Of a DNA stretch of 64,000 nucleotides, positions 8,727-61,349 are shown piece by piece. The translations under genes were made by a program, and so were the position numbers. Source of the DNA: Acidisoma silvae (GTDB lineage Bacteria; Pseudomonadota; Alphaproteobacteria; Acetobacterales; Acetobacteraceae); assembly GCF_020618775.1 (NCBI RefSeq), contig NZ_JAESVB010000001.1, positions 558,001-622,000 on the forward strand. Reading direction: 5' to 3'. The notes below the pieces were generated by a model. The model ran no database searches. It saw only the letters and a list, made by a program, of their open reading frames with translations, and had not been told where the DNA came from. Every line of letters begins with the position of its first letter. Within the stretch, counting starts at the first letter, position 1.

Positions 8727-8774
8727 GATCAAAGGGATAGCCCGGCCCTGGGCTTAGGGAAATCCCTTCCCGAC

Positions 8775-8873
8775 GTCATCCGCGTGCTCGTCACGCGGAT
8801 CTACCCGCTGCGGCCCCCAAACATCGTCTAGGCGCCACACCGGGTAGATGCGCGGCATGAAGCCGCGCATGAC
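8775..8873. repeat. Paired palindromic repeat, copy A
   Basis: Two 32-base halves in inverted orientation (8775-8806 and 8842-8873), each beginning GTCAT and ending ATCTACCC on its own strand and each folding into a small hairpin. The halves differ at 8 of 32 positions, but two of these pairs are compensatory within the stem (C-G to G-C and T-A to G-C). The middle resembles that of copy B at 56336. It sits between the end of the glycolytic operon and xthA, with nothing coding in it. Confidence 0.8.
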
Positions 8874-8896
8874 GGATTAAGTTAACCGCGTGGAAA

Positions 8897-27638: not shown

Positions 27639-27644
27639 AACAAC

Positions 27645-27722
27645 GTCATCCCCGTGCTTGTCACGGGGATCTTCTTTTGCCGACGCCCAGATAAGAAGAT
27701 CCCGGCTCAAAGCCGGGATGAC
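27645..27722. repeat. Paired palindromic repeat, copy C
   Basis: The left half (27645-27676, GTCATCCCCG...ATCTTCTT) and right half (27693-27722, read on the other strand GTCATCCCGG...ATCTTCTT) face each other across 16 bases. Each half is itself a hairpin. The ATCTTCTT ends match those of the GIY-YIG element at 60963-61335. It starts 7 bases after the csbD stop and lies between convergent genes, so it may also act as a two-way terminator. Confidence 0.8.
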
Positions 27723-27759
27723 GTCTGTCACGGGCGGTCCCGCGACAGTCTGATAAACA

Positions 27760-56303: not shown

Positions 56304-56335
56304 ATTTACTCTTTCCAGCCACCGTCAAAGGTCGC

Positions 56336-56434
56336 GTCACCCGCGGGCTTGTCCCGCGGGTCTACCCGCTGCGGCGCCCTGACGTCGTGCAAGCGCCCGA
56401 GCGGGTGGATCCCCGGCACAAGGCCGGGGATGAC
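56336..56434. repeat. Paired palindromic repeat, copy B
   Basis: The left half begins GTCACCCGCGG at 56336; the right half ends GGGGATGAC at 56434. Each is a hairpin, and the two halves are inverted copies, both continuing into (T/C)ACCCGCT. The central part (CGGCGCCC...GCGCCC) resembles copy A. It lies between ureC and ureE within the urease operon. Confidence 0.8.
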
Positions 56435-56463
56435 AGTAGGGAGGGCAGGGCGGTGTGCCCTCA

Positions 56464-60915: not shown

Positions 60916-60962
60916 TGCGGTCCTCCTCCACAAACGTAAGCAGCGTCATACCGCTAAATAGC

Positions 60963-61335
60963 CGTCATGCCCGCGAATGCGGGCATCTTCTTGGGCGCCG
61001 CTACAGAATAGAATCATAAAGGTCATGCCATTCCGGGTTAGTTGTCTCGATCAAGGCCACCTTCCAGGCACGACGCCATTTCTTCAGCGCCTTTTCCCGG
61101 GCGATGGCATTCACGATCTCATCGTGCCGTTCGTAGTACACCAGTTGCTTCAGCCAATATCTCTGCGTGAAGCTCCTTGTTTCACCAGAACGATGCTGGC
61201 TTGAGCGGCCAATCAGATCGGACGTCACGCCGATATACAAAACTCCGTCGCGGCGGTTGGTCATGATATAGACCCAGCCACCTTTCTCCATGATGCGCCT
61301 CGTCTCCAGAAGATGCCCGCTTTCGCGGGCATGAC
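60963..61335. mobile_element. GIY-YIG element bounded by palindromic terminal inverted repeats
   Basis: The ends 60963-60990 and 61308-61335 are inverted copies, 27 of 28 bases identical, each a hairpin GTCATGCCCGCGAA(T/A)GCG ending ATCTTCT. They enclose only the GIY-YIG gene. The ends match the halves of copies A, B and C elsewhere in the window, in which no gene is present. No target duplication is visible at the borders. It lies between urtD and urtE. The mobile nature is inferred. Confidence 0.6.
61001..61291 (-). CDS. Small GIY-YIG nuclease-domain protein
   Basis: 96 residues of the single-domain GIY-YIG family: WVYIMTNRRDGVLYIGVTSD carries the (V)YI...YIG strands, DLIGRSSQHRSG the conserved Arg and His, and AIAREKALKKWRRAWKVALI the catalytic Glu helix; it ends NPEWHDLYDSIL. 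No extra DNA-binding domain is present. Proteins of this type are often annotated as UvrC-like but do not replace UvrC. Coding starts 17 bases inside the right repeat and stops 10 bases inside the left one, so it is the sole cargo of the palindrome-bounded element. Confidence 0.88.
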   Translation of the reverse strand: MEKGGWVYIMTNRRDGVLYIGVTSDLIGRSSQHRSGETRSFTQRYWLKQLVYYERHDEIVNAIAREKALKKWRRAWKVALIETTNPEWHDLYDSIL

Positions 61336-61349
61336 GGAATCATCGCGAA

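Follow-up and report, generated by a model that had tools for sequence, protein, structure and literature searches.

A GIY-YIG nuclease gene framed by CGTC REPs in Acidisoma silvae: a candidate minimal mobile unit

Results

The unit in the Acidisoma silvae window

The stretch of A. silvae DNA analyzed here (64,000 nucleotides, the window) contains, at an ABC-transporter junction, a small nuclease gene that lies between two inverted copies of a palindromic repeat (REP). Its features are as follows:

60963..61336, no strand: whole unit, 374 bp, from a CGTC tag to a GACG tag, the tags being its outer edges
60962..60991, plus strand: left end, on the 3' side of the gene, a CGTC-tagged REP (stem 8 bp, loop 4 nt)
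61001..61291, minus strand: GIY-YIG nuclease gene (P0001), 96 aa, PF01541 with an E-value of 2.6e-13
61308..61337, minus strand: right end, on the 5' side of the gene, the REP in inverted orientation

The initial annotation of the window had described inverted ends enclosing a GIY-YIG gene, and this description was borne out. The arms are 30 nt each, 97% complementary and 316 nt apart. Each arm also folds alone into an 8-bp stem with a 4-nt loop, with DNA folding z-scores of -4.1 and -4.9. A 27-mer of the arm, sought with up to three mismatches, was found at two places in the window, both of them the arms of the unit (0.00 expected from 100 shuffles). A single ORF occupies the space between the arms; its product matches the GIY-YIG domain (PF01541, 50.5 bits, E 2.6e-13), and the domain search returned no second domain in the 96-aa protein.

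The ends belong to a described superfamily of repeats

The initial annotation knew of no named system of this kind. The repeats do have a name, CGTC REPs, and come with a published question about their enzyme (PMC3733652). As far as the accessible text of that source goes, this superfamily is characterized by a CGTC or TGTC tag, an 8-9 bp stem, a 4-5 nt loop and a CCA-like tail; its members occur mostly as head-to-head dimers, are spread over five phyla, chiefly in alphaproteobacteria, and include the dRS3 repeats of Neisseria and RPE-4/RPE-6 of Rickettsia (PMC3733652). The ends of the unit have this layout, with a CGTC/TGTC tag followed by an 8-9 bp stem starting with AT and a 4-5 nt loop. 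In 2013, CGTC REPs were stated to "apparently lack a dedicated transposase", and the accessible text reports that no tyrosine transposase gene flanked by them was found (PMC3733652). The nuclease clade described below is tied to CGTC REPs, which contradicts the statement that there is no dedicated enzyme, not the membership of the ends in the superfamily. No GIY-YIG gene linked with REPs was found in the titles and abstract openings of the open-licence literature, a scope outside which closed journals and preprints lie. One gene list holds a RayT gene and a GIY-YIG gene, unlinked in the part of the source at hand (PMC9465073).

CGTC REPs are abundant in the A. silvae genome (5.44 Mb), where GTCATGCCCGCNNNNGCGGGCAT was matched at 168 places with at most two mismatches and the reversed control at 0; a further count gave 165 places. 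A head-to-head dimer without a gene was found at 21 of 30 REP-centered loci, a set that includes the two unit ends and two loci that are one place; two of the 21 dimers have one arm from the other loop class. Many copies and a predominance of head-to-head dimers, as described for the superfamily, are thus found in this genome as well. Three gene-less copies lie in the window:

8774..8874 (arms at 8774 and 8848), no strand: copy A, head-to-head CGTC REP dimer, no gene, 5-nt loops
27644..27723 (arms at 27644 and 27699), no strand: copy B, head-to-head CGTC REP dimer, no gene, loops of 5 nt and 3 nt
56335..56435 (arms at 56335 and 56409), no strand: copy C, head-to-head CGTC REP dimer, no gene, 5-nt loops

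Copies A-C had earlier been read as facing halves with no gene between them, which is correct. They had also been placed in the same family as the ends of the unit; this holds for the CGTC superfamily, but not for the loop class or subfamily, since stems of 9 bp were found in all six arms of A-C and 5-nt loops in five of the six. The different loop class rules these copies out as direct non-autonomous partners of the unit. Gene-less dimers of the nuclease gene's own loop class occur elsewhere in the genome. A. silvae also has another gene of the nuclease's clade, L114, with 5-nt-loop REPs on both sides.

The 4-nt-loop dimers of this genome lie mostly inside units of ~145 bp with imperfect outer inverted repeats that end near CTCTAG (22 dimers aligned). 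These outer repeats, as read by eye, are absent from the nuclease unit, so the spread of the 4-nt-loop dimers may use other ends. The nested palindromes of ~145 bp around the dimers in L001-L030 and L253 have outer repeats TGTCAGGTTT..ATTGAA and TTCAATGAAAACCTGA..CTCTAG with sharp stops. When the L253 dimers were compared with genome G003, neither of the two corresponding places held a 4-nt-loop REP; these are weak empty sites, as one holds another, degenerate REP and the other ~1 kb of different sequence. No contiguous match for the single REP in L253 was found in the same comparison.

The nuclease

Residues Y19, R29 and E54 are invariant among 81 aligned sequences (an alignment from which L113, with a long odd frame, was left out), and Y8 is at least 90% conserved. 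The GIY-YIG superfamily is described, in the accessible part of the source, by the GIY and YIG motifs, a central Arg and a C-terminal Glu (PMC1564403). The window protein carries this set of motifs and is a predicted nuclease. The dN/dS ratio was 0.04-0.21 in 31 of 35 pairs, the others being not computable and synonymous sites often near saturation, and these values point to purifying selection on the protein.

The structure model (pLDDT 89, pTM 0.82) has the UPF0213 proteins 1zg2 and 1ywl as its nearest folds, followed by Slx1, none of them with an E-value below 0.001. The Slx1 lineage is set apart from the UvrC+ lineage by having no C-terminal Asn; N85 is invariant in the 81 sequences and may or may not be the equivalent of the UvrC-lineage Asn. 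No match near the cut-off was obtained with NCBIfam, the PDB sequence search gave weak matches only, and PHROGs returned weak homing-endonuclease matches only (E 3e-4).

REPs frame many homologous genes

Flanking REPs were scored with a strict detector that required a perfect stem of at least 7 bp, a [CT]GTC tag and full 200-bp flanks. The first sample was drawn from the best 80 of 572 confirmed candidates in named genomes and is biased towards the best homologues; after removal of 5 of 82 genes with cut flanks, 77 were scored, consisting of the window copy, L114 and 75 of these top homologues. Outward strict REPs were found on both sides of 31 genes, on one side of 27 and on neither side of 19. 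Sliding control placements, drawn from 81 loci with the window left out, had REPs on both sides in 8 of 5,979 cases and on one side in 171 of 5,979. Chance flanking by REPs is strongly disfavored by this control.

A less biased sample was taken from 144 genomes of the window's class. It comprised 87 genes above 100 bits, 85 of them with full flanks; one of 88 fetched genes of the window's clade (clade 1) fell below 100 bits, two of 87 had cut flanks, and L114 was outside the fetched set. Strict REPs lay on both sides of 17 of the 85 genes and on one side of another 17. An inverted-repeat score of at least 14 was reached in 42 genes, and 47 had either both strict ends or such a repeat; 38 had neither paired strict ends nor an inverted repeat, and 29 had nothing at all. 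When the left flank of one gene was combined with the right flank of another, a score of at least 14 was reached in 2 of 120 draws. The initial annotation had held that the association would be coincidental if most homologous genes lacked these flanks. Many do lack them (19/77 with none; 29/85 with nothing), yet framing is far above chance (31/77 versus 8/5,979).

CGTC REPs are not carried by small GIY-YIG genes in general, as none of the 18 genes sampled from other clades of small GIY-YIG proteins had one nearby (one of 19 was dropped with a cut flank). Five of the same 18 genes reached an inverted-repeat score of at least 14, and it was these that led to a second nuclease/palindrome pair, described below. 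On plasmids, CGTC REPs lay within 250 bp of the homologue in 5 of the 8 records examined, out of 33 with a homologue. A Neisseria gonorrhoeae record (L277) has an unannotated GIY-YIG homologue among dRS3-like CGTC repeats; it is filed as a plasmid, and its size of 2.17 Mb suggests a misfiled chromosome.

Gene and REPs occur together across genomes

Co-occurrence was assessed in the 144 genomes, with the gene counted as present above 100 bits and a genome as REP-positive with at least five REPs of two patterns. Counts were compiled by hand, and the tests treat the genomes, most of which come from different families, as independent. Gene and REPs were both present in 36 genomes, REPs only in 9, the gene only in 10 and neither in 89 (odds ratio 35.6, p 1.3e-16, genomes as independent); the association also held separately in genomes below and above 2.5 Mb. 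The initial annotation had held that equal abundance of the repeats in genomes with no such gene would make the association coincidental. The repeats are not equally abundant there: the gene was found in 36/45 REP-positive and in 10/99 REP-poor genomes.

There are counter-examples on both sides. Nine of the 45 REP-positive genomes have no gene, the largest being G046 with 100 REPs and G090 with 60, and 10 of the 46 gene-bearing genomes have fewer than five REPs of the two patterns. In G154, a congener of G046 that was counted as gene-bearing, the sole copy has a stop codon, as gene loss after spread would give. At the other extreme, G117 has 10 gene copies above 100 bits.

Y1 transposases were considered as the driver of the REPs and rejected. 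In the same 144 genomes the corresponding counts for Y1 transposases were 15/30/21/78 (odds ratio 1.9, p 0.15), so that they do not track the REPs, and no CGTC REP was found in the 3.3 kb around the single Y1 gene of A. silvae.

Nuclease clades pair preferentially with their own palindromes

Fifty units had a strict REP at either end, and in 50 of 50 the two agreed in loop class (4-nt or odd-length). A protein tree of the 93 genes whose loop class was clear, built from 97 columns and weak in most of its branches, also showed the class to be clustered: it required 14 changes, whereas shuffling gave 31 on average and 0 of 500 shuffles went as low. Twenty genomes had a single end class together with five or more REPs; in 18 of them the commonest genomic REP class was that of the gene's ends, and the match was broken in G139 and G151.

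A second clade of small GIY-YIG genes (L257-L273, e.g. L260, L267 and L271; consensus ERRLKGWSRAKKEALIxGDF) is associated with another palindrome, TCAYCCTGAG-loop-TCGAAGGRTGA (core CCTGAG-loop-TCGAAGG). It flanked 9 of 17 genes on both sides and 4 of 17 on one side; among 384 placements the corresponding counts were 0 and 1. Since the motif had been derived largely from these very loci, 9/17 is descriptive and not an independent test. Across the 144 genomes, again taken as independent, the clade 2 gene and its own palindrome gave counts of 8/6/5/125 (odds ratio 33). The cross-pairs were not significant in these genomes, neither clade 2 with CGTC REPs (p 0.11) nor clade 1 with the second palindrome (p 0.77). 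Two nuclease clades thus pair preferentially with two palindrome families. In the A. silvae genome, neither a clade 2 gene (E up to 1e-18) nor the clade 2 palindrome was found. The reading frame apparently enters the right-hand palindrome in about 5 of the 12 clade 2 proteins read.

The unit is found as a whole at different sites

The earlier reading had pointed to the window junction in relatives as a place to look for empty sites. The junction was closed, and the unit missing, in 8 of 8 relatives with both flanks recovered, with gaps between the aligned flanks of -6 to 33 bp; the own-genome paralogue L139 and G008, with one flank only, were excluded from this count. Beyond the unit, 34-76 bases on the left and 3-16 bases on the right were also unaligned with the relatives. 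A second case is the 355-bp unit of G024, which has a REP at either end: the orthologous site in the congener G139 has neither unit nor REPs, the orthologous interval being 494 bp in G024 versus 127 bp in G139.

Eight sphingomonad units were compared with each other. Identity is 95% in the left ends and 96% in the right ends; at third codon positions it is 55%, and in the outer flanks 28-30%. In five of the eight (10 pairs, only those at least 78% identical being listed), homology stops at most 35 bp to the left and 13 bp to the right, mostly within 5. The alignment of L067 and L095 continues for 3.4 kb to the right, and these two may be one shared insertion. A ninth unit with ends of the sphingomonad type is on plasmid pNL2. 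Two copies within one genome (L038 and L042) are 95.4% identical; their left edge lies exactly at CGTC, and homology extends ~50 bp beyond the right REP.

Insertion involves the entire unit and takes place where there is no REP dimer; like an insertion sequence, the complete unit is found at different sites. Neither a target duplication nor a boundary exact to the base was seen, the relatives being too divergent between the genes.

Two further loci were of note. On the Azospirillum lipoferum plasmid AZO_p3 (L281), a GIY-YIG gene flanked on either side by REP dimers separates sufB from sufC, another operon-junction insertion like that at the ABC-transporter junction in the window. In G022 (L250), the reading frame of a GIY-YIG gene continues into that of a SpoU methylase, which may be the insertion of a mobile unit and not a designed fusion. 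A fusion of GIY-YIG with a TrmH-like methyltransferase is reported for Erythrobacter litoralis in the accessible part of the source (PMC1564403), and it may likewise be such an insertion.

Discussion

A nuclease proposed to spread its own REPs

We interpret the unit as a minimal mobile unit of REPs and nuclease that spreads both itself and gene-less REP dimers, and we place the probability of this reading at roughly two in three; cleavage and action in trans are its inferred parts. The initial annotation had proposed an autonomous element with non-autonomous derivatives, similar in logic to REPs and RAYTs, and this proposal is supported by the flanks, the co-distribution and the empty sites.

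The nuclease would recognize the hairpin of its own type of REP, probably when the hairpin is extruded or single-stranded. The GIY-YIG and RAYT enzyme folds are unrelated, so the chemistry must differ. We know of no GIY-YIG enzyme that holds DNA covalently, and host repair or replication would accordingly be needed to complete insertion at the new site. RAYTs cleave at GTAG (PMC3733652, accessible text), and by analogy the nuclease may nick at or near the CGTC tag; such a nick would initiate spreading of the nuclease's own unit and, through action in trans, also of REP dimers that lack a gene. Cleavage, cut position, trans-mobilization and the route of repair are all modeled here on analogy.

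Four other explanations were weighed. The REP dimers could be older and independent, with the nuclease gene invading the spacer of existing dimers in the manner of homing. The framed genes do sit between head-to-head halves, where gene-less dimers have a short spacer, and GIY-YIG is a homing-endonuclease fold, to which the weak PHROGs match (E 3e-4) would correspond. An empty homing target should be an intact recognition sequence, however, and if that sequence is the REP dimer, none was found at the empty sites examined, neither at the window junction in 8/8 relatives nor in G139. The sphingomonad REPs moreover lie inside the shared unit, with outer flanks ~30% identical. We regard homing as unlikely.

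We judge it similarly improbable that another enzyme, Y1 or some unknown one, spreads the CGTC REPs while the nuclease gene rides as a passenger in an enlarged dimer. Such an arrangement would account for the 9/45 REP-positive genomes without the gene, and the outer inverted repeats around the dimers of A. silvae hint at other ends. It would call for no loop-class match, no tracking of REP abundance by the gene and no recurrence in a second clade. Y1 genes do not track the REPs, and the 3.3 kb around the Y1 locus of A. silvae are without a CGTC REP; nor does the accessible text of PMC3733652 report a tyrosine transposase gene flanked by CGTC REPs.

Less likely still is a role in control, in which the nuclease cuts extruded REP hairpins for genome stability or to hold REP numbers down, and is retained in genomes rich in REPs. 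Its fold neighbors UPF0213 and Slx1, the latter a branched-DNA nuclease, would fit such a role at their weak E-values, as would the purifying selection and the co-occurrence of gene and REPs; the framing by REPs, the insertion of one unit at new sites and the 10 copies in G117 would be left unexplained. A chance meeting of a small gene with a repeat as abundant as the REPs of the A. silvae genome is very improbable in view of the 31/77 genes versus 8/5,979 placements and the association across 144 genomes.

Relation to known systems

The REP-nuclease unit most resembles the REPtrons, or RAYT/REPIN systems. In the accessible text of the sources these also consist of tagged palindromes, many of them head-to-head dimers, with matching palindromes flanking the enzyme gene, and they show several subtypes per genome with subclass-specific pairing (PMC6006769, PMC3733652). 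Both defining features of REPtrons differ here, as the tag is CGTC instead of GTAG or GTGG, and the gene between the REPs encodes a protein of the GIY-YIG fold instead of an HUH-tyrosine (Y1) transposase. With the published CGTC REPs, including dRS3 and RPE-4/RPE-6, the repeats share tag, stem, loop, CCA-like tail and dimers; here the REPs have an associated nuclease clade, whereas the accessible text of that paper reports no dedicated enzyme (PMC3733652).

GIY-YIG homing endonucleases likewise have a nuclease gene of this type that spreads, but the present unit has a single domain, its own palindromic ends and empty sites without the repeat. The small Slx1-like and UPF0213 proteins (1zg2, 1ywl, Slx1) are alike in size and fold; the clade of the window protein is distinct from them, with the invariant Asn85, and is often framed by REPs. 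A link with repeats is not mentioned for the Slx1-like group in the accessible part of PMC1564403. Like insertion sequences and MITEs, the unit is a coding unit with inverted ends and many non-coding relatives; unlike them, it has no transposase fold, and its ends are themselves hairpins. No target duplication was seen in the comparison with divergent relatives.

The 96-residue protein with its matching ends is a concrete candidate enzyme for the CGTC REPs. If the proposed reading is true, the unit would represent a class of mobile unit built on this nuclease fold, and the REP/REPIN problem would have been solved a second time by non-homologous means. Very small hairpin nucleases with a target predictable from their own flanks would become available, and many genes annotated as 'GIY-YIG nuclease family protein' would become parts of selfish elements. 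To our knowledge, the GIY-YIG fold does not run any other bacterial element with palindromic ends.

More broadly, we lean slightly towards the view that the RAYTs have a general counterpart of independent evolutionary origin in the small stand-alone GIY-YIG nucleases, among which at least two clades each have their own palindrome family (clade 1 the CGTC REPs, clade 2 TCAYCCTGAG...TCGAAGGRTGA), others may as well, and a single-domain nuclease drives the spread of some of the commonest short repeats of bacteria.

Homologues outside the Proteobacteria were observed on a Planktothrix plasmid (L283) and a Spirosoma plasmid (L284), where they lie among other palindromes (TGTCATTCTGAG... and GTCATCCTGACGACAGGAAGGATGAC), hinting at further nuclease/repeat pairs.
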